64,000 nt of DNA from Sphaerolaimus hirsutus (Eukaryota > Nematoda > Chromadorea > Monhysterida > Sphaerolaimidae), in NCBI GenBank assembly GCA_964036195.1, contig OZ038460.1:3661504-3725503 (forward strand), read 5' to 3'. The position numbers and the translations under genes were made by a program. Of this stretch, positions 1,049 to 62,988 are shown piece after piece (the stretch's first letter is position 1; each line of letters opens with the position of its first letter). A model generated the notes under the pieces. The model had not been told where the DNA came from, ran no database searches, and saw only the letters and a program-made list of their open reading frames with translations.

Positions 1049-4000
1049 GACTTTTATACGGTGTCAGTGCTCTAATAGCTTTAGTTTCACCAAAAATGTC
1101 AAAAACTGCATACAACTGCGGCCCAGTTTCACTAGGAGGGATGTGCGCCCGAATAGATACTGTGGGAAGATCGTTCACAGCTATCCACACTGTGAAACGG
1201 CCGTTGGAAGGTGAGTCGACGCAGTCCAAGCTGAAAACATGATGAATAATATAAATTAATAAAATAATTAATAACAAAATTTCCAATATAAACGGAAATA
1301 CGGAAAGGATTCCGCCCGAAAATGCGGAAAATTTCCGGAAAAGAACCTCCGTCAAACGCTCCAGCAATTTTTTCAGTTACTATCAGTATCGTCTGAACCC
1401 TGTCCACCAAATCAGTAAAATTTTGATGAAATTTCGGGATTTTGTGGTCCCGATCCCAGGGGTATCTTGAATTTTGACTCTCCGAGTGGTTGGATAGATA
1501 GCAAATCGCTCCTCCGGAGGGATAGATAGCTGAAAAATTTTCTGGGGGGGTTGGTGGTTCGATATATAGGCTTTTTCGGGGCATAGAATGAAGAAAAGGG
1601 AGAAAAATCGCTAAAAGTAGGTGTAAAATAGCTCAAAATGGGTATACAAGAGCATATAGTACTCAAAATAGCTGAAAATAGGCAGTTAGACGCATCACCA
1701 GTGATTTTGGAGGTGAAAATCTATATATAGGTATGAAAAATAGCGATTTTGAGTGAAAATTGGGGTATAATTTCGGAAAAATCGCTCCAGATATGTAGAT
1801 AGCTGGGCGATTTGGGGGGGGGGGGGTTTAGAGGGTAGTAGCCCAAAATTTTGCCTCCGGGATAGATAGATAGCTGGGCGGTTTGGGGGGGGGGGGTAAC
1901 CCCCCCCCCATTCGAGACCTCTGCCCGATCCCGATCCCGAAACCTCAATCCCGATCCCGAAATTTGAAAAAGCCAATCCCGATTCCGATCCCGAGATTTT
2001 GAAAATCCCAATCCCGATCCCGAAAAAAATGCCCCAATCCCGATCCCGGAAATAATCATCGACACAAAAGGTGCCAGAAATGACACTTTTAAAAGACCAT
2101 TTTGTATGCAGTTTGCAAAAAATTTGCGCGCGAGCGCGCATTTCCCCACCTTCCTCTATATCTCTGTTGCGTGGGCATGGACACCATTACAAATGGACTC
2201 AATACAGTCCACGTGCATATATTGTAAAAAGTGGGTGAATGACACTGCCAGGCAGCCCATTGCGCAGTGTCTAAATGAGTCTATAGCATTGTTTTGGATG
2301 CCAATTTAATCCAACGTTTTGGCATCCATTGTTTTTGGTATTTTGGGGTGAAATATCAGGAAAAATCCCTGAAAACCAATTTTTTAGGCCTTAATCCCGA
2401 TCCCGAAAAACGCCAATCCCGATCCCGAAAGGTCAATCCCGATCCCGATATCTCAAAAACCAATCCCAATCCCGAAATGCCACTCCCGATCCCGATCCCG
2501 ACATCTCAAAAAACCAATCCCGATCCCCAAAAGTCAATCCCGTTTCAACTGGACCCCCACGTGTACAAATTCATTCAATTCCAAAAACACCCTAATCCAA
2601 ACTAACGTATAATATACAGAAACAGTGCAGCCGACTGCGCCAACTGGAATCTCTTCTGCAGCGAAACTTCTGAGATGATTGCAATCTTGCCGCGCGGAAA
2701 CGCCCCCTGATAATGTCACAGAAGTCATCCACGCGCGGCCGCCCTGGAAAACATGGCAAAATGGTATTGGTTTTGAAATTGGGTGAATGCAGGTAGATTT
2801 AGAATGTGGAGCAAATTCGATGAATCGAAATGATTATAAACATATTACACTGTTAAATGTAAAGTGTCCAATAAAAAAAACGACTTTGAAAAAAGTTTTT
2901 CAGAAACATCATAGTTTTGGGTTTGAAGCAGTAACGTGAGGGTAATTTATCAGTGAAAACATTGTCATAATATAGGTCGGTTGTCATACATGTAATCGAA
3001 TGAACCACGAAACCAGGGGGCAATCGCGAACCCTGTACCGGGTAAACTACATGTAAAATGTCAAGTAAATAAAAAAAAAAGAATTTTCTGATTGAAAGAA
3101 AAACGCTGATTGACATCTTCCGTGACATTTTGAAAGTTTGTATGACATTTTGCATGACATTTGACAACCTTCTATGACATTTGACACTTTACTTTACACC
3201 ATACAGTGTGCGACACTGCCACCTGACAAATCCAACTCACACTGGTCAAATCGGGAATCGGGTGCGCGGGCAGCGGTGGACTAGCGTTCGGGTCCAAATT
3301 TGTTAATCCCGCCCTCAAAGAACCACTCCATCCAGGTTCAACTGCTTCTACTTCCACCGTAAAAACTTCGGCCGGATTTAGCGACTGTTCGCTGAAAACC
3401 AGACCGGAAAAACTGCGCTGCCGAACCGCAACTAATCCACTGTCGATTAAACTGACATTGCGACCGGTGTAGCTGCGCAACAAAATAGAATTGATTACAG
3501 GGCTTTAAGAAAGAAAAAGGGCCAAGGACCAATTTCGGAACTGACCAGTAAGTTATCAATAGTGACAAGTAAAAGTTCAAGTAGAGTGAAAAGGCGTTGT
3601 TCTATTGATTCTAGTCGCACGTTAAACTGATAGGTGTCAAGTAGGGATGGCCAGCGTTTTTTTTTTTAAACGCCGCTTTTTTTAATAAAAAAAGCGCTGG
3701 CAAAAAATTTTGTACTCATGCACTAGGTATTTTGCTATTTTTTGTGCGTAAGCGCGAAATTTCAGATGCAAATAGCCACTAGTGGCTGTTTTCATTAGTT
3801 TTGTGGCATTTTTAGTGTCATTCCTGCATGCAATCATGTAATAATAAGTTGTGATATGTTAGTGTAGTATAGAATATTCAGCCAATGTGCTCTCTGAACA
3901 CTTACTAAAAAAGCCTCAGCCATACAAATTCTTTTAGAAACCATTTTTAAAGCCATGTTCAATCCTCAAAAAGAAATGTTAAAATTTGGACCAGTGCCAA

Positions 4001-7261: not shown

Positions 7262-10200
7262 ATGAGCTCGTCGGCTGATTACGAGGAGCCGCTGGACGTG
7301 CTCGCCACTGATTTGGAGTTCAAGCATCAGTTCTGGAAGATGCTTAGGTAAATGGTGCCACTCTCGTACTCTGTAAAATGCCATGCTAAGTGTCAAAATT
7401 CGTGTCAAGTCACAAACTTCGTTTTTTTATTATTTTACGGGCACTTGACATGACGTTGGCGCTGCATGACGTTTGAAATTTTACATGGTCTGGGAATGCC
7501 CGCTGGTCGTTCAATTTACGGATATCTGGCGATTTTGTTAAAACTTATGCTTCATTGAATTTGAACTGATCCCATTTTGGGCGCCATTCCGTCGATAACC
7601 GGTGCCATTCACTATTGCAAATACCGCGACTCGATAATTGGCAAGTTCAAAAAAGTGCCAAACTTTGAGCAATTCTGCAAGTGATCAGTAAATTTGTAAA
7701 CGAAAATATCTGTCGTCGTCTACGTAGAAGTTTATTTTTCGCTTTACGTACAAACTGACTAGATTCTCTGAATTGGAAACTGGGTCGGAAAATTTTACCG
7801 AACATTCCCATGTAGTGATGTAAAAGCGCCATGGCGCTGGCGCTGGCGCTAGCGCAAATGCAAAAAGCGCCATGGCGCTTTATACATCACTATTCTCATG
7901 GCACTCGATTTATAAATACCCTACTTACAATCCACCAACCCAGGCACCTAGAATCCAGTTTCTCCACCCGTCGACGCAATGTCACCTCAATCTCAACGAT
8001 GCGCAATTTCAACCCGTCCAAGGTGTGCCCCTTGTGCTGCTCCAGCATGGGCTTGCTGTTCAACAGGCCCAACAAATGTACTGTGTGCGATCGTATGGTG
8101 TGCCAAAAGTGTCTGGTTTTGTTGGATCGGGAAGAGGGGGTTGTTAAGAGAAATTCGGTGGATATGTGCAGTTTGTGCGCTCAGCATAGGTGAGTTTGCG
8201 GGGGCTAGGGGTCGATTCCTAAAGTGGACGAGTAATGATAAATTTGGTGACTTATAAATAATGTTTTGAGTGATACGCGGTGAATTAAGTGACGGAAAAT
8301 TTGTGAATGACAAGTAAGTTAGTTGAAGAATATACGCGTGACTTTTGAGTTTACTTATCACATGACTTTATGTTTTACTTGTCAAGTATACTTCATTCTG
8401 AATAGCACGTAAAAATACCATTGCCACTTGTCTACGCAAGTCCAACACCTTGAAAAACTCCGACAAAATTTTTTAAAATGTCATGTAAAATGACCGATAA
8501 AGTACTGTGTGGGTACTGCCATTAGGAAGTTTACATGTAAAATTGTTTTGCCACACTGCAGGAAGTTGTGCCGCATGCGGCGTGAATGGCAACACCTGTG
8601 TCCTTATCCTGAGACAACTTATGGCCATCGAAGGATCACTTTAGAACCAAGTATTATAACTAAACTCGACGGACATTATAGAAGTCAATGGTCTAAGGAA
8701 TTTTCGTACAACTGCGTATATTCGTAGTTGGCACACGTCCAAGTTACTGTTTGCGAGAATGTTACCAAATATGAAAGACGCATGATTTCCGTCAGCGTCA
8801 ACAAAAATGACTGCGGAATGCGATTAAGCGACCGCAATTGGTTGCTAATGGCAGCCCACACACGAGTTGACACTTGTGTTGACTTAATTGCATTCCGCGG
8901 TCATTATCGTTGACGCGAACGGAAATCATGCGTTTTTTACTTCGTTCATATAAAACGCAACAGTAACTTGGACGCAACAGTAAGTTCATACGTAATTTTT
9001 CGAATGAATTTGTCGGGACTGCGACGGTAAGATCTTACCTAAGACCTAACAATCCGACGTTCTATAACGAGTTGTCTATCAAATTCACATCATTCTCGCA
9101 TAAAAAGTCGGATTGAATCAAATGTATCATGAACCGAATGGAATTCGTTTATTCAAGTTCGAATTAAAAAACACACGTCATTGGTAACGAAGGGCCGAAT
9201 CACTGATTCGTTTCATGTCCGCCGAGTTTAGTGAATATATTGTTGAAAAAGTGTCAGGAGAAGTTATTTTTGTGGCACAATTTTGAGGAGAAAACTATTT
9301 GCGGTACATACGGTTTTTCATCTGATTTTTCGTCAGATGTGAAGCCGGATGTGAATTTGCGAAGCCGTACACGTCATACACGTTTCACAGATAAATATTT
9401 ACCGTATTTCCTCGAAATACCCCCCTCGAAATACCCCTGTCTCGAAATACCCCCCTAATTGAATGTAAAGGGAACATACATGACTAAAGCTGCGGTTTGT
9501 GATCCGGGCAATGCAGAACAGACGTTAAAAAGAACCACTGTGTTACGTTAGAACCTTTTTATACCATCTACATACTTATGTAAGTGTATAGACTCTATTA
9601 CATGGTGTTTATTGGTGTATTTTTCGATGTCTGCGTACGTTACAAACGACAAATTTGTAGCGAGATTTCAAAAAATTTCTGGCGAAATAATAAGCCCCCC
9701 CCCCTCGAAATACACCCCCTCGTTTAACCCCCCCCCTCAAAATTCTCACTCACCAACAATCACCCCCGGGGGGTATTTCGAGGAAATGCGGTACACAGTT
9801 TCATTTACACGGAGAATTTGTTCATCGGGAGACCAGACTTATTCAATAATTAGACTCTCCACTATGTATCTTTTTTTTACCAAAAAATTCACAATCACCA
9901 AAAAATCCCCCCCCCCCAGCCTCCACATGTACCTGGGAAACCCGCTGCGCACTGGAACGCGCAGTTCTAGCCGCAGTGCCCGCACAAAGCCGCCCCCAAG
10001 GCAGCAGAACGCAGGACCCCAAAGTGAGGCGTACTGAAATCAGGCAGAACTTTGAGATGACCTGTGCGGCAGACATCTCGTTCGTTAGACATCAACATAG
10101 GTCGAAGCACGGTCAGCTTGAGGATGTGAATAGTGAGTTGTAGTGATGAAAAAGTTTACCTTTGGCGCTAAAACGCTCTGGCGCCATTGGCGCTTGGCGT

Positions 10201-13200
10201 CCTGGTCCAGAAAAGCGCCATGACGCTTTTCCATCACTAGTAAGTTGATACTGTTATGTTTCAATGGCTGCTGAGTTGCCAGTGGTGATTTCACGAGATC
10301 ACCACTTTACAGGTGTAATTCAGAGACTTACTGAGAACATCAGACATTATTCTATGGTCTACAATGGATCCAACAATGTGGATGTGTCAAGTGAAATGGA
10401 TGAACAATTAGAGCGATGTTTAAATGATACAAAACAGAAAATAAGTGCCCTGTGCAACCATGGTGTAGCGGTTTGATCAACTTTTCTTTTTTAAATAAAA
10501 ATAATGTACAAAATACATTGTGCAAATTGCAAACAGGCTGATGACTTTGCAATGAGCGGCAGCCAGCCACCGAGTTGGCCAGAGTCATTTGAAAAGCTCC
10601 TGGCATCAGTCTTCATTCGGAAGGTATGGCCTTGTGTCTAGTGGTGGAGCATTTTGAATAACATCTGACACTTTGCATTTAGCACTTACCTAACAGCCTT
10701 TTTGCATTTATTTATGATAATTCTCGAAAATAATTACTGTGTCGGGTGCATTTCGGCAGTTTTCAGCATACCTAGTTGTTAAAACGTATTTACGTTTACT
10801 CGAAAAATACGCGTAAACGCGTACTGCGTATAATAAATACATTTACGTTGCCTCACGGGGACCGAAAATGTAATTTTTCCAGATAGAAAGTGACAAAAAT
10901 AGAAAAAAATTACTAAGAAGGAGAGAAAACACATTTTTGATGTATTCCAGAGTGAACATCGAAAAGGATACTAATTTTTACATTATTTTTGTGAGAGTAA
11001 ATATCCACTTTTAACTTTTTCTGTGAATGGAATACCCATTTTTATGTATTCCCTGGAAAAAATACTCGTTTTTACGTTTTCTCTGAAAAAAAGTCTTTTA
11101 CGCACGTTTTACGCTGTGTAAAAGTATTTTAAAAATATTTCACGTTTTCTGTACTCACCTGTGAGTAAAAAATTAATACTTTACGTTTACGTTTACTTTC
11201 AAAAAAGTTCAGTACTTGTAACAACTCTGGTTTCCAGCTTGAAACAAAAAAGAATATTGATTTGGTTTTCGTCTTGAACCTAGAGCCCTGGAAGCGGTCC
11301 TTACATGTAAACTGTCATGTCAAGTGTTAAATGTCATGCAAAATGTCATAGTATTTTACCTGGCATGTTTTTATCACTTCTAAAAACCGTACTCACCCAA
11401 ACAACGAACCCCCAACCCAACCACAGACACTAACCCAGTGCAGCCGCATACGCCGTCGCACATCTCACACCACAACAGTCACCCCTCCACATTCGCACCG
11501 CCTCAGCAACCAGTCTGATCTGTCGCTGTCCAGCGTCCAGTTGCCCGCGGGCAACAATGTCGCCGACGACACCATGTCATCGGCGATGGAAGACAGGTGC
11601 CAGTCCCAGACCCTGTAAAAGACCCTGTAAGGTGCAAAAGATAATGCTAAGTGTCATGTGTTATCTAAAAACCCTGTAAAGTGTCAAATCTCATGTGCTG
11701 TAAAAAACCTGTAACGTGTCAGATGTCATGTAAAGACCCTGTAAAGTGTCATGTGTATCCAAATCTTATTCTATTTTATAAGCATAAGATTTGGATACAA
11801 GACAATATGATTCAGGTACAGCTGACACATTTCATGGTCTTTAACGTGCCACATGATATTTTTCAGGTTTTTTTACATGACACATGACATTTTACAGTGT
11901 CTTTTACGCTTTATAAGGTTTTTTTTATAGGGTCTTGGACTAGCACCAGGTCGCCTGGTTTGGCGGCGGCGGAGAATTGGCTGCTGATAAGGCCAAGGAG
12001 TCCCCAGCCTGAGGGCAGTGAGATTAGTGGAGGGAGCACTAGGCAGTCGCTTGTGGTGCCCAATGCTAGTGCGAGGTCAGTGGATATAATTGTGCAAGGC
12101 CTGTCCCGCACCCTGTAAATTGTCGGGTGAAATGTAGCGGAATCCAATTGAGTCAACACATGTGTCAACTCGTGTGTGGGCCGCCATTAGCGACCAATTG
12201 CGGTCGCTTAATCGCATTCCACAGCGATTTTGGTGACGCGGACGGAAATCCTGTGTCTTTCAAAGTCAGTAACATTCTCGCAAAACTTGGACGTGTGCCA
12301 ACTACGAATATACGCAGTTGTACGACGATCCCTTAGACCATTGACTTCCATAATTTCCGTTGAGTTTTTTTTCAATAATAAAAACGTCCCAAGTGTTTTG
12401 TAAAATGTTAGATACTTGGGCGCAAAAATGACTCTGGACATTATTCCAGTGATTATGGTAACAAAAACACCCCCCCCCCCCGGACAGGCATCGATTCACA
12501 CCGGCGGGCAGCGTGCGGTCGCAGCGCTCAGCGCGCGTCCCAATGGCAACTGCGCGATCGCTAATCAAGGGAGCCAACAACGAAAGCGTGCCAAAAGCGC
12601 ACGAGATAAATGAAACGGGCGGCGTGCACCAGAAAGATGTAGGTGCGCGAAAAACGAGCGGCACACTTTCGGATGCATTCAGGTAAACTCCGGTGAATTA
12701 ATGAAGGGCGCAGTTCACTTTGGCAGAGTGCCAATGATAACAATGTGGCTTCTATAAGATATAGAAGAAATTCGTTGCAATTAGAATATTTTCGGACACG
12801 TTTTAGCAGTAATGAATGCTTTCAGTGCACGCAAGGGTATTCGTTGGCACACTGCCAGTGCCAACATAGATAAGACAAATCACTACAGTGAATTCAAACA
12901 TTCACATATGCCTTCACCTGCCCACAGCGACACGGCCACGGACGCGCTGCACACGAGCAGACTGAGCAGCAGCCCCGACGTGGATTACACCAACACCAGG
13001 TGCCACTCACAGACCCTGTAAAATGCGCTGGAAAGTGTTAAATGTCATGTAAAATGCCCTGGAAAACGTCGAATGTCATGTAAAATGTCCTGCAAAATGG
13101 AAAAAAAGTTTTTCATTTTCCATGGCATTTTACATGACTTTTGACATTTTACATGACACTTGACACTTATGTACATAGCATTTTACAGGGTCTAGGAGTG

Positions 13201-15747
13201 CTCCAGTTTGGACACGGACGACGGCCCTCCGGTGATAGTGCTGAGTCCCGGTGATCTGAGTACCAGGGCTGGGCAGCTTGCCAAGTTTACTTGCCATTTG
13301 AGGGCTGGCGCTTGGCCCGTCGGTGGGTGGACTTTTTGAGTGTGGCGATAATGTCTTTGAAAGTGAAAGGCGCCATCATTTTTTGGATTTTAATTCTATG
13401 GCAACGTGAGATTTAGAATACGTGTACCTAAATATTCTCATAGTGTAGTTATGCAAAAGCGCCACGGCGCTTGACGCTAGCACAATAAACAAAAAGCGTC
13501 GTGACGCTTTTGGCACCAACATGGTCTGGCGCCATTGGCTTATGATGAACTATGATGCAACTGATATCAAAATTAAAGCGCCGTGACGTTTTCGGTGCTT
13601 GGCGCCAAAAGACCGGCACTTTTTACGTCACTAGCATAGTGCCAAATGACAAAGCTGTGATGCTGTGTCTCAGTTCAAAATTATTTTAAAACACCCCACA
13701 CCGCAGCTATATCATGGCACATTAAGCGGCGATTACACTCACAAGATTCCGAATTGATTTCAAGCAACGACGACCCCAGATTCATGGTGACCTGCGGCAG
13801 CAGACAGCTAATAATTTTTGACACTGTGCCAGAAGACACTGGGGAAATTGTTGCCACTGCGAGTAATCATTGTGGCAGCGTCACTGCTAGCACTATGCTC
13901 AGTGTGGCTGGTAAGTTGGGGGAAATGGGTTTACAGGTGCCAATTTTGCGGGTGGAGAAGTAAAACAACCAATTTTGAAGGACTAGCCTTTTGAAGTGGA
14001 AAGTAAAAAGTTAACTTTTATTTTACTTTCACTTATAAATTTAGTTATTGTTTAACTTTTTACGTCTCACTTCAAAATTCCTCGTCAACTCTCCACTTGC
14101 GGAATTGACCGGTTATCGGATTTTGTGGTCGTCTCGCATTTCGTAAAGTGTCGAATTGTCTGTAAAATTAGTTTACAGATTTGTCAGTGTCATGCAAAGT
14201 GTAAAAACTTCAGTCACGCAATCTTTTTAAAGTTGAATTGACATTTTACCCGACAGGGATGTGCCAAACCTGTCAAAAATCACAACCCTCTCAAACATCC
14301 ACAACCAACCCCCCCCCCCCCACCCCCAGACAGAGACTTCATCGGCGAAGCCCCACTATTCACCAGACCCCTGCCATCCACAGTCGACTGCAGCGCGGAT
14401 CAACAACGATTGGTGTTGAGGTGCCGCGCGGCCGGCTACCCCACTCCCAGGGTCATTTTTCTCTTTAATAGCGCCGCCCAAGGACGGGGAAAGGGTGAGC
14501 ATGGTGAAGCTGAGCTGCATGAAGGTGCCCAGCTGATTGACACGGATGGTGATCCGAAGGGACCCATTGCAGGTGGGTTGCGATAGTGGACGTAGGCTCT
14601 CTAGACATGTAAACCCGCTCGAGATGTAGCTGTATAAGCGGTGATGTTGGAAAATAAGAAACAATTTTATACGAAATGGGCCATACACACGCTGTAGTGA
14701 ACCAACGGCACATACGTTTTGAATACTTTCAGTTCACCAGAATGATGAATCCGTCAACTACTGCTGATAAAATAATTCATTTTGGCTAACTTAAACGTGT
14801 TTCAAATACCTAGATAGTTTTGGAAATTTTGGTTGTCAACTAGTGTGCGTATAAATAAAATAAACCCAAATACAAAATGCGGTACGCCGACATCCAGACG
14901 CCGACATGTTGGAAACTGATCTAGCGGGTTTACATGTCCACAGGTGCAGGGTCGGTATTTATTTAAAACCACCACTGTGTGCGAATACGGCCGTACACTG
15001 CCGCTAGATGATGTTGCAAAAATCCTCCGTTAGATTTGATTCAGTGTCAAACAGAGACCCATTTACGCAACCCCCCCCCCCGCAGACTGGTCCTCCTGGT
15101 CGGGTCGTTGGAAAATCTCCATCCCCTGCCCGCACCCCAGCGCCCACTCGGGCACGTACACGGCGCTGGCGGTCAACAGAATCGGCGCCATCACGTCCCA
15201 GTGCCTGGTGCACGTGAACAAGCCCGACACTGTGCCCAGGTGGGTCAGATTTTTGAATGGGGGGGGGGGGTGACTGGGAGGGGCGGGTGGTGACTTCGAT
15301 GATTAAGTGACAAGTTTGTTAATTGAGCAAGTTAACTGTCACTTTGTTTTTTTTTCGAATTACCACACGACATCGATTTAAAGTTGTGTGGGGTGAGGGT
15401 TATGTCTCAGATGTCACGAAAAAGGTGAAAAGTCATGTAAAATACCTTGTAATATGACAAACGAAGTTTTACACGAAGTTTGTAACTTTGCATGACATTT
15501 GCGATTTTACAGGCTCTTTTTGAGTGCCCCGGGTCATTCAACTGATATTTTGTGTATTCTACGTTCACCTACAAAGTCACATCCATATCACTGATTGAGG
15601 TGGACCGCCACCCGACTTATCCGCAACTTTACTCACTTTTCTTGTCACTTGTCAACTTTCTGAAGTGTCCCCAGATCGTACAAAGAGGCGGGTGGGGTTG
15701 AGAATGGCAAGGAAATGTATGAAAGGAATGAGACAATAGAGGAGTGA
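7262..15747 (+). CDS. Rab-effector-type zinc finger protein with two C-terminal Ig domains
   Basis: Thirteen phase-consistent exons give 604 aa: 7262-7347, 7944-8189, 8562-8597, 9920-10030, 11444-11596, 11950-12075, 12488-12682, 12928-12999, 13207-13322, 13707-13910, 14330-14572, 15086-15239, 15675-15747. Residues about 45-110 form an FYVE-like zinc finger with cysteine pairs CPLC, CTVC, CQKC and CSLC, like rabphilin/Slp Rab-binding modules. Residues about 125-330 are Ser/Arg/Pro-rich and probably disordered. Two I-set-like Ig domains follow, with FTCHL...ISWHI...DTGEIVATASN and LRCRA...SGTYTALAVN. There is no signal peptide or membrane span, so it is probably cytoplasmic, as with muscle or cytoskeletal Ig proteins. 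Exons 3 and 4 and their donors are the weakest joins. If those were wrong, the zinc finger and the Ig part could be two genes. Introns 5 and 8 are entire introner elements. Confidence 0.75.
7813..7892. mobile_element. GGCGCC-word hAT-like MITE (80 bp)
   Basis: TAGTGATGTAAAAGCGCC at the left and its inverted copy ending ACATCACTA at the right enclose repeats of GGCGCTGGCG. Flanks are TTCCCATG and TTCTCATG, an 8-bp duplication with one mismatch. It lies in intron 1 of the zinc-finger/Ig gene, just upstream of exon 2. Confidence 0.75.
8640..9000. mobile_element. Inverted-repeat element, copy 1 (ACGTCCAAGTTACTG family)
   Basis: The sequence around AATTTTCGTACAACTGCGTA, GGCACACGTCCAAG and GCGACCGCAATTGG returns in reverse complement at 12127-12370. 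Within this copy, GACGCATGATTTCCGTC-like sequence appears in both orientations, so it is partly palindromic. There is no ORF of note. It lies in intron 3 of the zinc-finger/Ig gene. Confidence 0.6.
9408..9796. mobile_element. CCGTATTTCCTCGAAATACCCC element, intact copy
   Basis: The left end is ACCGTATTTCCTCGAAATACC and the right end is its inverse, GGTATTTCGAGGAAATGCGGT. The interior matches 25961-26188 plus 27346-27487, which is the same family interrupted by another element. Long runs of C lie just inside the right end. Related fragments are at 18505-18600, 26650-26985 and 28600-28740. Confidence 0.7.
10141..10239. mobile_element. GGCGCC-word hAT-like MITE (99 bp)
   Basis: TAGTGATGAAAAAG at the left and CTTTTCCATCACTA at the right. 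Flanks GTGAGTTG and GTAAGTTG are an 8-bp duplication with one mismatch. The inside repeats TGGCGC words. It lies in intron 4 of the zinc-finger/Ig gene. Confidence 0.75.
10770..11222. repeat. Low-complexity ACGTTTAC-word block
   Basis: About 450 bp made mostly of variations on ACGTATTTACGTTTACTC and GAAAAAATAC. It starts near TAGTTGTTAAAACG and ends near TTGTAACAACT, which look like short inverted ends. I saw no clear flanking duplication. It resembles the word-based MITEs of the window but I cannot place it in a superfamily. Confidence 0.5.
11597..11949 (+). mobile_element. Introner A: an entire intron formed by a GTGCCAGTCC element
   Basis: The exon ends ...GACAG; the intron begins GTGCCAGTCCCAGACCCTG and ends CAGGGTCTTGGACTAGCACCAG, followed at once by the next exon. 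The inverted ends pair over about 20 bp. CAG occurs on both sides (11594-11596 and 11947-11949), as a 3-bp target duplication would. The interior repeats TGTCATGTAAA-like words in both orientations. Reading phase (2 nt carried) is kept across it. Confidence 0.85.
12127..12370. mobile_element. Inverted-repeat element, copy 2 (ACGTCCAAGTTACTG family)
   Basis: Reverse-oriented relative of 8640-9000, sharing GAGTCAACACATGTGTCAAC, GGTCGCTTAATCGCATTCC and ACTTGGACGTGTGCC. It lies in intron 6 of the zinc-finger/Ig gene. Confidence 0.6.
13000..13206 (+). mobile_element. Introner B: an entire 207-bp intron
   Basis: Exon ...AACACCAG, then GTGCCACTCACAGACCCTG ... CAGGGTCTAGGAGTGCTCCAG, then the next exon. 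CAG is present at both borders (12997-12999 and 13204-13206). The middle is a near-perfect hairpin of TGTCATGTAAAATG words. The same gene carries introner A two exons earlier. Confidence 0.85.
13446..13633. mobile_element. GGCGCC-word hAT-like MITE (188 bp)
   Basis: TAGTTATGCAAAAGCGCC at the left, TTTTTACGTCACTA at the right, with flanks TCATAGTG and GCATAGTG (7 of 8 match). It lies in the intron that splits the first Ig domain. Confidence 0.7.
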
Positions 15748-16899
15748 TTGTGGTTGTAATTGTTTTAATCAAAGATTTTTAGGGTTGTGATTGACTTTAT
15801 CGATGACCAGTACACTTTATTATACGGCCTACTTATTGATTGTAGTGGGTATTTTTAAGGTCAATTTTCAATACTGTACTTAACTTGTAGACAGTCGATA
15901 AGATGTTTCTAACTTTATTTTTTTAGTAATTTAAATATAATAGCGAAATGAACACGACCATCATCGAAAAAATGTCACGACAGCATGAAAAAATAGGAAA
16001 AATGCGGACATCTCCAACTGAAGCTCAATGTATCATTGCAACACGCAGTATAACAGTAATACAGTAGTTAGGTACATATTTATATTGAACAACGAAGTAA
16101 ACACTGCAATATACACGCATGCTTAAAGACTGGTGGCAGTCCCAAGCCCTGTAAAGAGTGAAGTAAAGTGTCAAATGTAAATCAAATGCAAAGTCAAATG
16201 TCAATTGTCATGCAAAGTGTCAAATGTAAAGTCAAGTGTCAAATGCAAAGTTAACAGTTTATTGTAATGCAAAGTGTCACATAAGATTTGGATACAAAAA
16301 AGATTGAGATACACAATTGACACTTTACTTTACATTTGACACTTTGCATGACAATCGACATTTGACTTTGCATTTGACAGTTTAATCTAAACTTTACAAG
16401 TCTTTGGATTGCCTCCTGGTGGCAAACAGAGAGCTGCACATACACGTTTTAGCATATAAATACGAACATGAGTTATATGCGAGTGCACAAAATCACACTA
16501 AGTAGGGGCGATCGCAATGCTCGTCAACAATATATAGCCCCCTCAAAAGATTCGTATCGATTCGAAATTGAATTGCACAAAAAACACCCTACCTACCTGG
16601 CTCTCTATGCAATACTGTACATAAAATTATTTACACAAAAATACCGATGAGCGTAGACCAATTAGCCACTCAATGTGAGCATGCCATTTTATTCAGTCGG
16701 TCACACTGAATTACAGATTTTGATTGCTGGATATGAGTATTCAATAAAAAATTGATCGAGCTCGTTGTCAACTAAATTTCATCAACTTAATTAATCAAAT
16801 TAAATTCAACCACCTATGTAAATACTGATTTATGTATGTAATGCATCAAAGTACGCCAAAAAGTCCCTCCAACCCCTCCCCACTTTATTTTCCAAACCC
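15748..16899. other. Convergent intergenic region between the Ig gene and trehalase
   Basis: Both neighbouring genes end here, from opposite strands. It holds their presumed 3' UTRs and one introner-family element (16133-16415). I found no other coding exon. Confidence 0.6.
16133..16415. mobile_element. Intergenic copy of the introner family
   Basis: Starts GTGGCAGTCCCAAGCCCTG and ends GTCTTTGGATTGCCTC, with CTG duplicated at both borders (16130-16132 and 16416-16418). It is a full-length insertion outside any gene, which shows the family is a transposon and not just intron sequence. Confidence 0.75.
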
Positions 16900-50149: not shown

Positions 50150-53100
50150 ATGTTCTACTCGAGGCGCGTACTCGCTTTTGGCTGCGGCGCGGCGCGGCAG
50201 GTGTCGCCCCAGTGCAGGAACGTCTCGATTTGTCGCGCAGCAGGTTAGATGTGTCGCCGCGGGTGCTGGCGGCGGTGGTGATGCGGCCGGACTGCAGCTG
50301 CAGCAGCAGGTGGGTTGTGGTTGAGTGTGTTTTGCGTGGCTTTCAGGATTTGGCAAGGTGCCAATACGAATGGCCGGTGTTTTTTTAAACCGTTTTTAAA
50401 AAAAACGTTTTTTTAAATGAACAGGCATCGAAACCGTTTTTTTTTAACGGCAGCCAAAATTTTAAGTACTTAGCACTAGGTATTTTGCTATTTTTTCGCA
50501 ATTTCACATGCCCATTACTAGGATTGGCACTTGATTTTTTTAAACTGATTTTTTTTTTAAATCTGATTAAAAAAAAATCAAAGGTTGGAAACAGATTTTA
50601 ATTTTAAAAAATCAAAAGGCAAAATTTCTGGTAGACTTGCACTAGGTATTTTGCATTTTTTTTGCGCGCAAGCGCGCAATTTCTCATACATATTACCATT
50701 TGTGGTGTTTTCATGGGTTTTGGGGGATTTTTTATGTAAAATCTTCCATTTATTCATGTTACCATGTAATAATAAGCCGTGATATGCTAGTGTAGTATAT
50801 AATATCAAACCAATGTGCTCCCACATACTTCTACAGTGTGTAACATCACTGTCAATGTATTCGCCTTCTCTTACAACCTTATTTAAGCACTATTCCATGC
50901 TGAACTTCACTTGAAGTCACGAACATTCGACAAAAGGCGATATACATAATAAGTTGACGTAAAATGGATATTTTTGAAAGAAATCGCTACTTATAATAGC
51001 TATTCCATGACTCCACAGTCATAATATGACCACAATAGACATAACAATACATTGCCTGACACTTAACATACATATATTTTTTTCTCTATACCCCCATTTT
51101 GGGCGATAAAAAAACAACTGATTTTAATTTTAAAAAATCAAATTTTTTTAATTGATTTTTTTTTAAATCAAGGCGTTTAAAAAAAATAGATTTTTTTCCA
51201 ACCCTACATTACCATTGGTTGTTGTTTTCATTGGTTTTGAGGCATTTTTAGTGTGAAACCTTCCATTTGTTCATACTATTGTGCCATAATAAGCTGTGAT
51301 ATGTTAGTGTAGTATATAATATCAAGCCAATGTGCCTTCCATATAGCTGTACAGTGTGATACATCACTGCCAACGTATTTGCTTGTTCTTATAACCTTAT
51401 TTAACCACTTTTCCATGCCCAACTTCACTTGAAGTCACAAACATTCGACAAAAGGCGATATACATAAGAAGTCGACATAAAACATATATTTTTGACATAA
51501 ATCACCACTTATAATGCTATCCCATGGCTCCACAGCCATTCTGTGGCTATATATAACATCACAAAGTACTGTCAGTTGTCTAATGTACCTGTATATGTTG
51601 ACCCATAACCATATCTGCGAGCTTTTGAAAAAAACCCTTTTTATTTAAAAAAAACGTTTTTTTTATAAAAAAACAGGGTCGTTGGAAAACAACGTTTTTT
51701 TCCATCCCTAGGTGCCAATTTTGACATTACTTTGTCCGCGGTTTACCGCGGTCAGTTCCACATTGTGAAAAATACAACTACATTCTCCATGTGCCTGTGT
51801 CTTTTACTATAGTCCTCTATTGACTGTACAATTTACAGTGTAATCTACTGTAGCCAATTTAAACAAAGAAACCAAATAGTTTTCATCACATGACACTTCC
51901 CACTGAATTTAGCGCAAAATTGCCAATGTGACGTTTTTCATCAGAATACGGTTACAAAGCGTGTGTACCCCTCACTTTACAAACCACAAACCCCATCACC
52001 CCCCAAAACCACCCCCTTACCCCCCACAGCGTTACACAACCCTCTCGGGGGTGTCCATGCCCTCGCACGCGTCCACAGTGGTCATTGGCGGAGGCGTGGT
52101 GGGCGCCAGCATAGCTTACCACCTGGCCCGCGCCGGCATGCAAGATGTTGTGTTGCTGGAGAGTCATCAGATCGCTACTTTGGGTAGCACTTCTCATGGA
52201 GTGAGTTTGGGGTTGGGGGGTGTTTTGGGTGAATGGGTGGATAGGTTTATGTGGGGATTTTGTGGGTGGATAAGTGAAATAAAGTTTGGTGGAAATTGAG
52301 AGTTTCCTATTTCAGTTTTTGTTTTTATTGGGGATATATAAAAATTGCAAGTATTTTCATTTGTGGATCTATTTCCGCTGATAATTTCACTTGTCACTTG
52401 ATTATCACTTACGGAATTGTTTTTTTCCGGATTTAATATATTTTAGCTTTATATAACATTTGGTTTTCAGCGGCTGGTAAGCAGCGGGTAAGAATTGATG
52501 TTTTGCGATCGTTTTGTACTGGTCCAAAATCGCGCGTTGTCTTGTCTCACGAAGTAGCTTTAATGTCAAAAAAACCCTAGTGTTCTGTCCACCGTTTATG
52601 CATAAATTTACAGACCGGAACCGTTTCCGCTGCAACACCGGTGCACAGAGTCAAACCGATGTTAGCCTATTCAGTCGAGCTTTATTCCAGATTGGAGGAA
52701 GAGACTAACGAAGTTTGTTGGGGGTCTTTTTTGGTTTGATTTTTGTGGTTTGGTGCGAGAATTTTTTTATGTTTTTTTCTTCCGTCCCGTGTACAGTATT
52801 TCCCGTTTTATTTACTTTCCCACCATACTACTGGCGGCAGTCCCGCGCACTGTTAAGTGTTAAGTCAAATGTTATACAAATTTATCAAAGGTCATGCAAA
52901 ATTTCAAAAACGCAGAAATAATATTTTTGACTTAATTGACATTTTACACTTTACTCCACACTTTCCTTCACCCCTAGAAACTCAACTACGTGCCGTGCGG
53001 CACGCTGCGTCTGGCCACGTCGGACACCCGCGTGCGAGACTTCAAGCGGTACACTTCGCGCGACTACTACGTACAGGGTGACTCATGTCGCACCGTGCTT

Positions 53101-56100
53101 TTGGACAGGGACCAGGTGGCCCAGATGTGCCCCCTGCTCAAGATGGACTCGGTTGGGGGGGGGGGGGGGGGTTGATCGTGGTTTTTTTTGGCGCGGGCAA
53201 AAAATGGCGCCAAAGCGCCATTCAAAATGATGGCGCCAGAGAAAATGGCGTCATGGCGCTGGCGCCCTTTGGCGCCATTCCACCACTAATAAGCAGTAAA
53301 AAGTTGTAATCGGCATCGATCCTTGCATTATTTAAAAAACTCATTGAGTAAACTCCGGCCATCCCTACTTTCCACTTACCACTTACCTTGTCACTTTAAC
53401 AACTTCACTTTTACCTCCCCCACACCCAAACAGGTACACGGCGGCCTCTACACGGAAGGGGATGGTTACGTGGACCCAGTGGGTTTGACGCGCGCGCTGA
53501 TACACGGCGCGACCGCTTTCGGCGCCCAAGTGATCGAGACTTGTGAAGCGCGCAAAGTCGACCAGACGTCAACTGGCACTTGGACAGTTGACACGGATTT
53601 TGGACAGATTGCTTGTAAACACGTGGTGAATGCCGCTGGTTTGTGGGTTGTGGAATTTGGGATTGTGCGACTACTGGTGCCAGTCTCCAGACCCTGTAAA
53701 AGACGCTGTAAGACCAATAAAGGAAAAGTATCCAAATATTTTTCTTTGGTATCCTAATCTTATTCTATAGTATCCTAATCCTATTCTATACTATGTAAAT
53801 CTCATTCTATAGTATTCAAAAAAATTGTATTCAAATCTTACGTTAACGTACATAAGGTTACAGTGTCTTTTATATTTTACAAGGTCTTGGACTGCCCCCA
53901 GGTTGTCAATGAGCGTGCGCAGCACCAATCGTTACGCTGGATATTTTTACGTGCTTTTTATTTGCGAGATTTAATTTCCCGGCAGGCTCTCATTGTGCAG
54001 CCAGATCGATAAAAATATAAGCGTCCGAAATAATATTTAGTTGCTCGACTACAATGCGTTCTTTCATTGGCAGCTTGTCTCCTTTTTTCGGGCATCGTAA
54101 ATGCAACTCCGTACACGAATCGGGCTACCCGACAAAAACATCTAGGGTAGATGTAGGGTTCAAACGGGATTGACTTTTCGGGATCGGGATCGGGATTCAC
54201 TTTTTGAGATTTCGGGATCGGGATCGGGATTGGGGTTTCGGGATCGGGATCGGGATTGGTTTTTTGAGATTTCGGGATCGGGATCGGGATCGGGATTGGC
54301 CGGGATTGGGGTCACGGGATCGGGATCGGGATTGAGATATGCATTTTTCCGGGATCGGGATTGGGTTCTAGGAATAGAGATTTTGGCCATTTTTTATGGC
54401 ATTCACAGTTGTTCATAAAGGTCTCAAAACACTGTTGGATGCCAGAAAAGTGGCATAAAATTGACGCTGGGGGTTTGCATCCACTTTTTTGCATGCAAAA
54501 ACGTCATTATTTCACTTCTTATAATTTCCACTAATTTTTCCGGGATCGGGATCCCGGACTTGGGAGTTTCTCGGGATCGGGATCGGGATTTGAAAATTTT
54601 CGGGATCGGGATCGGGATTGGTATTTTTGAGATTTCGGGATCGGGATTGGGGTTTCGGGATCGGGATCGGGACTGGTAAATCCCGGAATTTCACGGGATC
54701 CGGGATCGGGATCGGGATCCCGTTTGAACCCTAGGTAGATGCATCTCACCCGAGATGCAAGGGTCGTCTGGATTTGCACCCACGCGTGGGATCTGTTGCA
54801 TAGCAAATCGCTCATCCGGAGAGAGAAATAGCTGGAAAAATTTGTAGGGGTAACCCCCCCCCCCTTTGGAGACCCCCTCACATCTGCAAACTTTTACCGT
54901 CCACAGGCGTGTGGATGAACGACGTCGCCAGACTGTCCGGAATCACCCTGCCCGCCGTGCACGTGGAACATCAATTCGCGAGTATCGTGAAAGTCGCCGA
55001 GTTGCAGGACACGCCCATTCCCTGCGTCATCGATCACGAGGCGCCCTTTTATATCAGACAAAATGGGTGAGTTTTGGATGTGGAGCTACTAGGGATGGGA
55101 AAGGGGCGTTTTTCAACGGCCCGGTTTTTTAAAAGAAAAGTGGTTAGAAAAAGCGCCTTGAATGTCCTTGCTTTGTGTATTGCTTGCATTTTTGTGTAAT
55201 CCCGGGGGCAGATCCAACTAGAACGTATTGTGCCCGCAATTCCGGCCCTTAATCCCATATCAGACACTTTACTCTGCCATACGTTCCAATTGGATCTGCC
55301 CCCTTGTGCCAGTTCCAAGCCCTGTAAAGTGTCAAATGTCATGAAAAATGTCATGGAAATCTGTTAATTGTTATGCAATGTTTAGTACTAAATTTTTTTC
55401 GTTCTGATTCGATTGACATTTGACAGTTGACTAGTGATGGAAAAGCGCCAGAAATTTGGCGTCAAGGGCCAAAAGCGCCAAGCGCCAATGGTGCCAGAAC
55501 AAAATAGCGCCAGCGCCAGCAGTTTTGTTCCCGGCGCCACACAAAAATAGCGCCAAGCGCCATGTCTTTTTTCCAAACCCCAGCGCCGGAGCAAAATGGC
55601 GCCAAGCGCCATGGCGCATTCTGCTTTGCCGCTAGCGCCAGGCGCCAGCGCCATGGCCCTTTTCCATAACTACACTTGACTCAACATTTCAGAGGGCTTG
55701 GGACTGCCCTCGGTCACTGGAAATTCCCCAACACCCTCGATCACAATCCGCAGGCGTAACCTGATTTTCGGCGCTTTCGAGCGTGACCGAGCCGTGGCGT
55801 TGCGTGCGGATTGGCGCAAAGAAACTCCCCGCGACGTGACCATCCCGGCCGCCTTCGAGCGGATCGGCACCCAATTCGAGAAGGCCACCGAGCTGTTTCC
55901 CTGTATTGAAGGGAGACCGGTCGATGCCAGGGCGGGGGTGTTTATGATTACACCCGATGGGTTTCCGTTGTTGGGTCCTTATCAGGGATTGAAGAATTAT
56001 TGGGTCGCCGGAGCGTTTTTGTGGGTTCTGGTTTGGATTTTGCATTTATTTTTGGGTGTGATTTCACAGTTTGATTTTGTTGTTTGTGGATTGATTTTGT

Positions 56101-57008
56101 TGTTTATGAAAAGATTTGTGTTGGGCTTGAAAATTGGTTCTCGAGTAACTTATAAAAGTAATCATTTTTTCTCAAATAATGGTTTTCACAAATTAGGTCG
56201 GTGAAAAGTCGATTTTTTTAAACTACCCATATTTTCACAACTAAATATCATAAAAATCAACCACATTCTCAACAAACATTCACATTCCCAGAAAGAAAAT
56301 CCCAACACCAAACAAATTCTCTCACAAAAACCTCAGCGACGGGATCGCGATGGCTGGCGGCGCGGGCCGCTTCCTGGCCGACTGGATCGTCGGCGGCGAG
56401 CCTCCCTTCGAGTCGTTCGACTCCGATGCGAATAGGTTCCGCGGGTGGACAGACTACAACTTCACTAAGCAGAGAGCTAGCGAGTCTTATAGGTGGGATG
56501 GGTGGGGTTTGTTTTGGGGATCGAATGGAATTCCGATCTCGAATCCCGGGAATTTTACGGGATTTAGCGGTCTCGATCGTGAGATCCGGATCCCGATCCG
56601 GAAAACTTCCCGAAAAACCATCCTGATCTCGTACGATCCCGACACCGACACCGATCCGTCAAATTCAAAATACCGATCCTGATCCCGATAAGTCAACTCC
56701 GTTTGAACCCTAGGTTCATTTAAGCGTCTGTGTTTTTGACTGGTTATTTTTGTTGTCATTTTACTGGGTCTAGTAGTGTTCCCAGATCCCATTTGTATTT
56801 ATTTGTCCATTCCCCTCCCCGTTTCCTATCTTTCAGCTACGTGTACAACTGGTCGCTGCCGCCGGCTTCGAGACAAGGGGGCAGGCCCACGCGCAGAGTG
56901 GGCGGGGCTTATCCCGCGCTCAAAAAGAACGGCGCCAGAATGACGTTTAGATCGGGTTTGTTGTTTTGTGTTTGTTTATATATATATATATACATATATA
57001 TATATAAA

Positions 57009-57049
<41 letters not shown>

Positions 57050-58224: not shown

Positions 58225-61200
58225 TTACCACGGTTCACTGAATAATTCCTCTATACACAATCGCTTAATCAGTAGAAATACGGCAAAAATCACATTTCCA
58301 ACGGGAGTAATTTCAACGCAAATGAACCACAACAAAGCAGTACAAATTGCGACCACAAATGCTATTAAAAAACCGCGCATATCCGTAAGTTTCACTGGTC
58401 GATAAGATGTGTTTGTAGCGTGTTTCTCACAAACAACGGGGCCGCGCCTACGTTCAAATGGGTATGTGAGAAGAATTTTAGCTCATTTATTAGTTTCCCA
58501 AAATTTTTCCAATTTCGGTGTTGGAATGACATCACTTTTCAATTATGATTTTTGATAGCCATTTTTCACTGCAAAATGTTCTAACTTTTATATGATATTC
58601 GAAAAGACTGTTCAATGTTGGATATTAGATTGTTTTACAAAAGTTCCGTTATCGATGTTCGATCAAAAATGCTGCTATTTTCGATACGATTCGATATATT
58701 TACCATTGCAATTTACCCTACTCAAAATCTCGCAAATTTTTTAAAAATTAACGTAACCTGTTTTCAAAGAAATATTTGCCTAATACCGGCATAAGTTTTC
58801 GTCTCGCATTATCAATTGCCCTGTTAAGGGCTTCCATTCCATGAAAATCCTTTCTACAAATGAACGACTGTGGGAGTTTAGTAATTCTGATTGGATAGTA
58901 CGCGTGCATATCGCACAGTCGTTCGATGAAATATATATCACGGGCGATTTTTCTGGCACTCGACATTTCGATATAGTCCCCTGCAAATTTGGATGCATAT
59001 TTTTGGCATGTTTTTCACAACGGCGGCACGCATTTTAGTTGACAAGGGGTGTCTGTCAACTGGTTTCAACCGTTCACTCAGATTTTAGTTGACGGGTCGC
59101 AAAGTTAATGCAAATGCTCATGCAGCAAAAATGAAGATAGATATTTCGGTATGAACATAAAAACTCGGTTCTGCGAGCCCCCAACAATTGCCTGAATTGA
59201 CAAGTTGAGAAGTTAAAAAACAATTGAGAAGTGATAAGAAAAAATTTAAGAGATAAATGAAATGAAAAGTAAAAATTTGATAGAAACGTAAATTTAGAAG
59301 TGAGAAGTAAAATGAAAAGCAAAAAGTGAAATTAGATCATAACTATAAATTCATAACAAATTAACGTTTTACTTTTCGTGTCACTTCTCACATCTAATTT
59401 TTTGTTTCATTTTAATTTTTACCCTCCATTTAACTTATCTTTTAAATTTTGACTTCTCACTTTTTAATTGTATTTTTTCAACATATCAACTTGCTCAATT
59501 AGCTACAGTTGACGGTGTCAACTGGTATGCCGTAGCGCCAATTTTGCAAACTCATTTCAAGATCGACCTTTTTCTAGCAGCTCCAATCGTTCATCATAGG
59601 TAGCAAACACAATAGGAGTTTTTTCAAGGGCTGCTCTCAATTTAGCAAAGTCACTTCCATTTGAGTTTCGTATTGTTGTTACAGAAAACGAGTTGTTTCT
59701 ATCAGTTGTCATCAACCTGCGCGTGGTGTTACATTTTTTTCTTTTTTTTTCAAATTTGGTATGTGGGGTTCAAAATGGGGACTTCCGTTCCAAAAGTTCA
59801 CAAGCGCCAAATCCAGAAAAATCGAGTTAAGCGTGGATTTGACCTCCACGTATATTTTTTCACATTTTAGAAAAAAATCAGCATTATAGTCCATTTCGTT
59901 CCTGAGATACAGTGGTACCGTTTTTCAGAAAAATCACAATTTTCACATCGAAAGTGCACATATCTATCTCAGATCCCCTATGAAAAACAGAACTTTCATT
60001 TCGTAAGTGCACATATCCATCTCGGACCACCGGAGTTTCATTTCATAAGTGCACATATCCAAAAAATAGTTTCATTTCCAAAAGTGCACGCGTGCTCCGG
60101 ATCGCTCGCGAAGAGCCGACCGGATTTCCCCTACAAAAATAAGTTACATTTCCAAATGTGCATACGTGAATTTTCAAATCTATTTTGCACTATATATCGA
60201 AAATGTGTGTATATATAGAGCTGAAAATTTAGGTCGAGGTACATGAGCTTTCGAATGGCAGACTCAGTTTTGCTCCAAAATGCATAGTTTAGCATTTATT
60301 TCACTTTGAATTGCAAATATTCAGATTTACTCCCTATTTTGGGTGTTTTCCAAAATATGACATAACTCCCAAAATATTTGCCGGCCGACAAAATTTGTGG
60401 AATAGAAAAATGTAGACAAATGTTCAATGTATCTGAATAGTGCGGGGCAAGCTTTGTCGCCCAAACATGGCGCTGCCGGGCCAGCGCCAAACTTTAAAAT
60501 GCGATTTTGAAAAATCGAAAAATATGGATATGTGAACTTTTAGAATGAAAGTCCCCAAATGTGACTGGTTTCTGGATCGGGACTAGGGCAGGGGTCTCCA
60601 AGATTTTGGCCTTCGCGGGGGCTGGATGGATAGCAAATCACTCCTCCGGAGGGATAGATAGCTGAAAAATTTTCTGGGGGGGGCACAATATATATGCTTT
60701 TTCAAGGTTCAGAAGGCAGAAAGGGGAAAAAATCGCTAATAATCAGTAGTAGCCAAAAGTAGGTTTAAAATGGCTGAAAATAGGTATATAACCATGCATA
60801 TAGATCGGGATCGGGACCAAATTTGCCTCGGGATAGATAGATAGCTGAGCGGCCTCCGGGATAGATAGATAGCTAGCCGATTTGGGGGGGGGGGCAGCGC
60901 GACCCCTGACCTGCGCGTGGTGTTACGATTTATTTTTTATATTTTTTATATTCGGATCTGGGGTTCAAATGGGAGTGGTTTCTGCATCAGGATGCGGGAC
61001 TGGAGCCAGTCTCGCACCCTGTAAAGTGTAAAATATCACGCAACTTTTTTAATTCATTTTAAAGTGCGATGATAAAAAGGTAATTATTTCGGTCATTTTA
61101 CACGAGATTTGACATTTTTATATGATTTTTTTTGCATTTTGCTATGGTATGGTGCACTTGGCCCATGGCATTTCCGGCGCCCATGTCCATTTTTGAAATG

Positions 61201-62988
61201 GCGCCATTTTTTGAGACAATTTTCCACGACTACCGACTCTATTCCCCATCACTACTGATGAGTTTATTTCCATCCACATCTCAATTAGTTCATATTCCTG
61301 ATAAACTCACTTGTAGCCATCACTCTCTATCGCATGAGCTAACTGCTCAATATTTGTCGCCAGCTCAGTGTGCAGATGCGGCTGCAGTAGTATACTCACA
61401 TAGATTTTCTGATAAAGCATAGAAATGGAAAATGCAGTGAATCTGCCCATAAATAGGGCACACCTCATTGACTTTGTTTGATTCTTCCCCACTGTGGTGT
61501 AACCAAAATGTGGCCTGTATTTTGGGTATCTTGGTGCTGATGATCTTGGCCAAACTTGCCTGGATTTGTGATAAAATTTCAATTTGAATTTGTGACTTAT
61601 TTTTTTTGCAGATAGGGGAAGGGTTACCTGAATATATCCCACATTGGCAATATACCATACTGCACAGAGTATATTAAAGTTGTTGTCGCGGCCACAGCGA
61701 AGGCCAATGTCAAACAAACCAGCCATAGTGAATCTGATAAAACCGACTGCCATCAAATTTTTACCATTTTCTGGCAAACAAAAATCGCTATCTTACCTGA
61801 GAAAGTTCCAAATGGCGCCCACAAATTTATCCAAAAGTGATCTGGGTCCAGTTCCGCAAATTGAGAAGTGAGAAGTAAAATGGCAAATGCTTAGTGAAAT
61901 GAGAAGTGAGAAGTGCATTGATGATGAAATTTATCAAAAGCGGAGGGAAATTACTTTTTTACTTCGCTTTTGCCAATTTACTTGCCATTTCACTTCGCTT
62001 TTGCCAATTTACTTGCCATTTCACTTCGCTTTTGCCAATTTACTTGCCATTTCACTTCGGTTTTGCCAATTTACTTGCCATTTCACTTCGCTTTTGCCAA
62101 TTTTCTTCTCAATTCAATTCTCACTTCTCATTTCACTTCGCATTTGCCATTTTACTTCTCACTTCTTAATTTGCAGAACTGGCACCTGGTTTTTTGTGCA
62201 GAAATCCATAAGAAGCTTCATCGATTGGATTGGCTTGGGCATATTTTTCACTCCTTTCATGTGTATGTGTATAAAATTTACACAAACAGTCCACGGAAGA
62301 TTCATTTGCTGGCAAGTTTGGATCAATGTAGTCCAGATTAGAATGATTTCGACTGCAATTTACACAAAGACCGTTTTTTGGATGTTTTGTTTTTGTGTGA
62401 CTTGGGTATGATTGATTCTATGTAAACTCTTTTCAGGGTTTTTTTGCGGCATTTGTGTAAAGTGCTTGCCTGGTAATACGAATTGGTTCGAATTTGATTT
62501 CTCCTGCAAGTAAGAATGATTTTAATTCATTTCCGCTAATGGCGTCAACTCGGTGTCAACTGATTTCCATGTCAATTCAGAGTTTAGTTGACGGGTCGCA
62601 GGACAATTTTTAAGTGCACACGCGGCAATGTCAAAAATGGATTAATATTGGTAAGTGTATTTGAACATGAACACGAAACCAGTCGAAACCATGAACTATG
62701 TCGGCCCAGTAGACACCGATGTCATTGTCAACTAAAAGTGTGTGGGACTTTTAGACCGGTGCGTGCATCGGCCTGGCACTCAAAAAAAATTTTTGTAAAA
62801 AAATATCAACTGCCAATTACAAAACAACTTAATTCTTTACCTCTAGATAGATCCTGTATGATGCTGGCAACTTCTTTCTCAACGCCTGGATATGGGCAGC
62901 GTAAATTTGGCTTCATTTGCCATTCACACTTGTGTCTTAGTGGCCACACTGCCAACCGAATAATTGTGGTGTTCGGATCCGCTTTCAT
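58225..62988 (-). CDS. Ionotropic glutamate-type receptor without amino-terminal domain
   Basis: Nine exons in phase: 62988-62841 (first ATG), 62503-62470, 62352-62186, 61841-61797, 61733-61628, 61559-61311, 59698-59568, 58980-58758, 58447-58225 (TAA), 441 residues. S1 of the ligand-binding domain contains PGVEKEVASIIQDL. FWINLWAPFGTFSDSLWL leads into the first membrane segment. A pore/M3 region (FMGRFTAFSISMLYQKIYVS) and TELATNIEQLAHAI open S2, which continues with VFATYDERLELLEKG and FICRKDFHGMEALNRAIDNA. The last membrane segment is DMRGFLIAFVVAICTALLWF. The SYTANLAAF gating motif is not recognisable, as in divergent ionotropic receptors. No signal peptide follows the chosen ATG; the frame stays open upstream, so a leader exon may lie beyond 63000. 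Intron 62353-62469 uses GC..AG. The intron 61842-62185 is an introner. Confidence 0.82.
59170..59500. repeat. AAGTAAAAAGTG-word inverted repeat
   Basis: The left half is a series of GAGAAGTAAAAAG-like words and the right half the reverse complement, a hairpin with arms of about 140 bp. The same word family makes introner D (61842-62185). It lies in the intron 58981-59567 of the receptor gene. Confidence 0.55.
60590..60910. repeat. GATAGATAG/G-run repeat copy
   Basis: Contains CTCCGGAGGGATAGATAGC, GGGATAGATAGATAGCT and G runs, the same family as 1480-1910. It ends near GACCCCTGACC. It lies in the large receptor-gene intron 59699-61310. Confidence 0.6.
61842..62185 (-). mobile_element. Introner D: a second family forming an entire receptor intron
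   Basis: On the minus strand, exon ...AAACCAG, then GTGCCAGTTCTGCAAATTAAG ... TTTGCGGAACTGGACCCAG, then the next exon. CAG is present at both borders (plus 62186-62188 and 61842-61844). The ends match the GTGCCAGTYC ends of introners A and B, but the interior is AAGTGAGAAGTAAAATGGC words and a 38-bp tandem repeat (TTTTGCCAATTTACTTGCC), so it is a separate family. Phase 1 is kept. Confidence 0.85.

Follow-up and report, generated by a model that had tools for sequence, protein, structure and literature searches.

Short inverted-repeat transposons with a CWG target, some of them probable introns, in 64 kilobases of Sphaerolaimus hirsutus

The introners that Huff et al. are said to have described in 2016, in the algae Micromonas and Aureococcus, are reportedly DNA transposons that generate introns. 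A survey of 3,325 genomes by Gozashti et al. (2022, PMC9860276) reports introners in 175 of them: transposable elements inserted in exons become introns, and most leave the length of the mRNA unchanged. Target site duplications (TSDs) were found in 49 of 130 families and terminal inverted repeats (TIRs) in 72 of 177, and some introners bring their own 5' splice site, the 3' one being supplied by the target. Here we consider a stretch of 64,000 nucleotides of the nematode Sphaerolaimus hirsutus (contig OZ038460.1, positions 3,661,504 to 3,725,503), called the window in what follows. It contains a family of miniature inverted-repeat transposable elements (MITEs), family A, whose copies are often flanked by CAG or CTG, written CWG. 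We think it fairly probable that these elements target CWG, and that insertion in exons, at a CAG read in the sense of the gene, made introns of some of the copies.

Two other described systems are close to family A. The NuwaI group of PIF/Harbinger (PHIS), with TIRs of 12 to 61 bp, produces 5'-CWG-3' duplications in 16 animal genomes (PMC4482050), and the passages of that paper on the group make no link to introns. Family A resembles NuwaI in its CWG flanks, but NuwaI TIRs usually start with GGG, whereas most ends of family A start with GNG, with G at base 2 in some of them. The introner elements of Amoebophrya have inverted repeats and direct repeats of 3-5 nt at the exon-intron edges, and a hairpin is proposed to join the exon ends (PMC7789003); Amoebophrya is, however, a dinoflagellate parasite in which many splice sites are non-canonical, and the junctions predicted here are GT-AG. 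As for the introners of PMC9860276, a paper whose main text uses neither the word “Harbinger” nor “CAG”, earlier families had repeats of 3-9 bp, and in its Figure 2 the examples that give a TSD length, 4 or 8 bp, come from protists, unlike the 3-bp CWG of the animal-like genome studied here; family A also differs from them in offering only three probable intron cases. Since introners with TSDs or TIRs and CWG-duplicating NuwaI elements are already described, the mechanism proposed below is of a known kind: what looks different here is not an intron-making TIR transposon as such, but the CWG target, the proto-splice context and the animal host. In the open-access literature of one library, we found no paper joining CWG-type Harbinger elements with introners.

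The ends of family A have the form GNGSCAGTCCCARACCCTGTAAA. The recurrence of ends of the type GTGSCAGTCC, remarked in an earlier note on this DNA, is confirmed: with at most one mismatch the pattern occurs 15 times against 4.1 expected, a count reached in none of 100 shuffles. A weight matrix of the terminal 24 bases, excluding flanks, started from 17 ends picked by hand and was refined in four rounds on its own hits. Above 14 bits it yields 39 ends, whereas 30 simulated sequences contain 0.8 on average; the matrix being trained on family A itself, this number is an enumeration and not a test. The window holds 11 two-ended copies, designated here by their first position, together with single ends and one sister type (Table 1); among the two-ended copies, the ends placed with least certainty are those of 45212 on the left and of 24546 on the right. 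Three listed positions, 44751, about 55308 and 61005, had to be moved to 44744, 55306 and 61003, where family ends do lie.

These sequences have the recurrent terminal inverted repeats that characterize TIR DNA transposons and MITEs: the arms pair with 18 to 26 matches within the terminal 30 nt in 12 of 14 intervals, and the intervals at 5077 and 13931, with badly set ends, have 16 and 20. Compared with shuffled sequences, hairpin folding reaches z scores of -1.8 to -19.5 over the 11 copies, and it is stronger in the copies 11597, 13000 and 45212 than in the other eight (one-sided exact P of 0.012 per nucleotide and 0.024 on z). Among 23 curated ends, base 1 is G in 20 and base 3 in 21, base 2 is G in nine, T in eight, A in four and C in two, and bases 7-8 are GT in 13. 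The interiors consist of short degenerate repeats, with TGTCAAATG / CATTTTACA units. In copy 44744, and in no other, the inverted match continues past the CWG (44733-44743 and 44998-45008; GGTGATTCCTG ... CAGAAATCACC), which is unexplained. Searches for relatives by exact end patterns, two in viral_contigs and one in genome_contigs, returned no match.

Six internal or low-complexity ends were removed from the 39 (one of them, 11723, also has a CAG), and one end was shifted by one base, from 53678 to 53677, changing its flank from TGG to CTG. Exactly outside the remaining 33 ends, CAG or CTG is present in 19 cases (P = 8e-22), as had been claimed, and at each of the other eight offsets between -4 and +4 in only 0 to 2 cases; CWG is also the target site of the NuwaI group. 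Judged as a TSD of fixed length, the CWG flank is strongly enriched, yet of the eight copies flanked by CWG left and right, only five have identical triplets (11597, 13000, 16133, 36184 and 61845). The idea that CWG is an outward extension of the TIR, with no duplication, was rejected: it predicts that every copy has inverted triplets, with CAG on one side and CTG on the other, whereas of the eight pairs three are inverted and five direct, although the pairs alone prove neither. CWG flanks 23 of 27 hand-curated ends, and in eight of these 23 it is preceded by AC, giving CWG/GT on the other strand; across CWG sites in general the share is 5.7% (P = 2.7e-5). This context is found at six of 11 right ends and two of 12 left ends, an imbalance that is unexplained. 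The CWG targets agree with placing family A in the NuwaI group of PIF/Harbinger, a label that rests on the target site and the shape of the TIRs and does not amount to established membership.

Three copies, 11597, 13000 and 45212, each with the CAG on its right, are probably whole introns, as judged from reading frames. The right-side triplet is CAG in the sense of the gene for all three, as insertion at a sense CAG demands; among the remaining CWG-flanked copies, both CAG and CTG occur. Gene models were built from reading frame and homology. In a FYVE/Ig gene of eight exons, removing copies 11597 and 13000 yields a single open frame of 411 codons, whereas the two other frames contain 18 and 20 stops; in a second gene, removing copy 45212 joins open frames. 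In all three cases, removal leaves no stop in the coding frame, and unspliced reading through the copy meets stops; for 11597 and 45212, both other frame shifts also hit stops. Frame agreement alone has a chance of about one in three per copy. The second gene has no significant match (no Pfam match in a scan of its three parts, and a best PDB match at a non-significant E of 0.22), so that no ortholog is usable to place its introns.

The exact junctions are a more delicate question. Around each copy, every in-frame GT-AG pair was scored with matrices derived from only 20 other introns. For 45212, whose left end has no GT start, the donor may be 45218, which falls within the left TIR, or 45200, which belongs to the exon, and either donor 45200 or acceptor 45414 outscores the junction of the element. 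Because splice scores favor other junctions for 13000 and 45212, their status as introns is better supported than their ends. The arrangement foreseen in the earlier note, in which a CAG, an element opening with GT and a second CAG restore the exon, is found at 11597 and 13000, and on the right side only at 45212. The mark of introners is that several introns resemble one another right up to the two splice boundaries; family A provides three probable cases by frame continuity, with uncertain junctions in two, where at least four entire introns had been announced. A possible fourth junction, with donor 12103 inside the end at 12097, was dropped because the in-frame donor 12076 scores better (rank 1, versus rank 7 of 12); the 411-codon model of the FYVE/Ig gene used 12103, and with 12076 it is still open, over 402 codons.

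Three CWG-flanked ends, those at 11597, 13000 and 3222, coincide exactly with donors preceded by CAG. Under CWG targeting alone, with seven modeled CAG-preceded donors among 1,715 CWG sites, the probability of this coincidence is about 6e-5; it becomes 0.0005 to 0.003 if minus-strand trehalase and UTP15-like genes, outside the models, bring the donors to 14-28. A link between GT ends and donor position (3 of 3 versus 5 of 20, one-sided P = 0.03) was set aside, since a donor must be GT.

The following scenario would account for these observations. A non-autonomous MITE, probably mobilized by a transposase of the PIF/Harbinger type, would enter through a 3-base staggered cut at CWG, with CWG/GT as favored context. 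Where it lands on a sense CAG of a coding exon, the triplet would be duplicated, leaving a CAG on either side: the left one would become the end of the exon, the TIR would provide the GT donor, at base 1 in some copies or through the GT that starts at base 7, while the right one would supply the 3' AG. Splicing would then take out the element and one CAG, keeping the frame and restoring the exon. Because the element is an inverted repeat, its ends would be similar in either orientation, and its hairpin may bring donor and acceptor together. Copies 11597, 13000 and 45212 are probably introns of such origin, the others having presumably entered existing introns or non-coding sequence. CAG/GT is the proto-splice site. 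A bolder proposal, which we hold only tentatively, is that the preferred target CWG/GT of a NuwaI-like family in an animal coincides with the proto-splice site (C/A)AG/GT, many ends offering a GT; insertion at a sense CAG would therefore give a splice-ready and frame-neutral intron in either orientation.

Several observations weigh against the creation of introns by family A. Seven of the 11 two-ended copies do not form introns of their own: five lie within longer introns and two outside coding models. Of the conjecture that a CAG-targeting element installs itself as a removable intron, the CWG target and the MITE anatomy stand, but not the behavior of most copies; nor does the element start with GT as a general rule, since only eight of the 23 curated ends do. 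Three of the eight CWG-flanked pairs (3017, 44744 and 53677) differ at the middle base, which is about the expectation for independent sides. The junction of the element is top-scoring only for 11597 (ranks in Table 1), and for 13000 the second frame shift is also open across the 44-nt downstream exon. The donor coincidence is partly circular, because reading frame, with the element already in view, set the position of two of these three donors. The difference in hairpins could reasonably reflect age, because copy 16133, which is no intron, folds as strongly (z = -17.2). Finally, the attribution to PIF/Harbinger agrees with the target site, but no transposase was found in the 20 open reading frames (ORFs) scanned, ten chosen as genes and ten further ones, a minor share of the 561 ORFs with at least 50 codons; in particular, the ten further ORFs encode neither a DDE transposase nor a Myb/SANT protein, traits of autonomous NuwaI members.

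Much of this would follow if ordinary CWG-targeting MITEs had settled in pre-existing introns, the three cases being old introns whose sequence was displaced or lost, or whose splice sites lie slightly outside the element, so that no intron was created. The seven copies inside other introns or outside coding models agree with such a history, as do the higher scores of in-frame junctions outside or inside the elements 13000 and 45212. So does copy 3017, located at a donor whose empty site, TGTCAG^GTTTCG, is already donor-like: more likely, the insertion of this copy took the place of a donor that was there before. At 11597, however, the upstream frame enters the element and runs 20 nt before a stop (codon 63), and the downstream frame opens inside, at 11888, so that a native intron would have little space. 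The sense CAG to the right of three flush copies, and a frame restored in all three, also speak against this explanation, which we regard as rather unlikely, though deserving of attention. Less credible still, and in our opinion quite improbable, is that the element simply prefers existing CAG/GT donors that resemble its target, donor coincidence being target preference with no intron created. The CWG/GT context and the copy at the donor of the Neuralized-domain gene suit it, but it leaves unexplained why, at 11597, 13000 and 45212, the right edge is also a likely acceptor with no native intron left, and the modeled CAG-preceded donors are few among the CWG sites. That there is no transposon family at all, only shared simple repeats with CAG or CTG nearby by chance, fits the interiors of the copies, but with CWG confined to the very edge of the TIR, and with paired inverted arms and hairpins in 11 copies, we give it hardly any credence. 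Insertion of family A in exons remains our preferred explanation: the MITE family with its CWG target is real, and three introns were probably made by the element, one of them, 11597, firm by splice score.

The origin of new introns is an old question, which includes why they lie at (C/A)AG/GT. If exonic insertion of family A did produce introns, a transposon with CAG/GT in its target that gives both splice sites and leaves the protein unchanged would answer both parts by one mechanism, and the chemistry of a transposase would explain introns gained at proto-splice sites. Harbinger elements of the CWG type in an animal would also add a lineage and a class of transposon to the described introners.

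Table 1. Copies and ends of family A, and the sister type, in the window
Positions	Strand	Feature	Remarks
3017..3222	-	Copy; end is the exact 5' donor (TGTCAG/GTGGCAG) of the Neuralized-domain gene	Remainder of 479-nt intron 2744-3222 is non-element
7355..7502	.	Copy 7 nt inside intron after first exon of FYVE gene	Donor 7348
11597..11949	+	Copy (11597-11946, 350 nt) and right CAG, probable whole intron	Target GACAG/GT; splice rank 1/46
12097..12120	+	Single left end inside intron	
13000..13206	+	Copy (13000-13203, 204 nt) and right CAG, probable whole intron	Weak acceptor; splice rank 8/10
16133..16415	.	Copy outside coding models	CTG on both sides
24546..24733	.	Copy within longer intron between two probable trehalase exons	Degraded flanks
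36184..36373	.	Copy outside coding models; starts GA	CAG on both sides; 9 nt before ATG of ORF at 36383
44744..44997	.	Copy inside intron	Flanks CTG and CAG
45212..45396	+	Copy (to 45393) and right CAG, probable whole intron	Strongest hairpin (z -19.5); splice rank 38/52
52834..52857	+	Single left end inside DMGDH intron	CTG flank
53677..53898	.	Copy inside 1268-nt DMGDH intron	Flanks CTG and CAG
55306..55710	.	Copy inside 687-nt DMGDH intron	Internal GGCGCC-rich repeat
56759..56782	.	Single right end inside DMGDH intron	CAG flank
61003..61026	.	Single left end	CTG flank
61845..62185	.	Sister type, ends GGTCCAGTTCCGCAAATTGAGAAG / GTGCCAGTTCTGCAAATTAAGAAG, other inner TIR	CTG on both sides

The encoded proteins of the window are those of a eukaryote, animal-like: dimethylglycine dehydrogenase (DMGDH), FYVE_2, Ig, Neuralized, COA3, trehalase and WD40. 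The DMGDH gene (PDB match at E = 1e-99; Pfam DAO, GCV_T and FAO_M) has eight homology-supported introns, four of which contain one of four family pieces, and none is filled by it. In the Neuralized-domain gene, homology to the human NHR domain (2e63) extends just across the junction at 3222, and the joined frame is open. The trehalase call is weak: its joined exon fragments match Trehalase at E = 0.029, under the cut-off, and do not match when scanned apart. Copy 36184 was rejected as an intron of a 5' untranslated region, on account of its GA start. Four dispersed 5S rRNA genes on the same strand, identical over 119 nt (20856-20974, 22872-22990, 31013-31131 and 34783-34901), sit in or beside the trehalase and WD40/UTP15-like genes.

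The window has other repeats. Inverted repeats of 191 nt, 94% complementary, bound a 5.1-kb stretch (38618-43750) that contains tandem arrays of 30-nt and 116-nt units and nearly fills the 5.2-kb intron 38609-43808; their edges, like TA/CAGGGTGCGGCAATT, we take to be Tc1/mariner-like. A long repeat with TTTTTTAAAAAACG ends occurs in opposite orientations at 46023-46698 and 63099-63781, with arms 90% and 95% complementary, and related pieces are found at 183-765, 3658-3850 and 50390-51705. Another pair in inverted orientation, 8652-8898 and 12137-12377, is 89-91% complementary, its second member sharing an intron with the single family A end at 12097. Short GATCCC/GGGATC motifs form arrays at 1921-2540 and 54170-54720.

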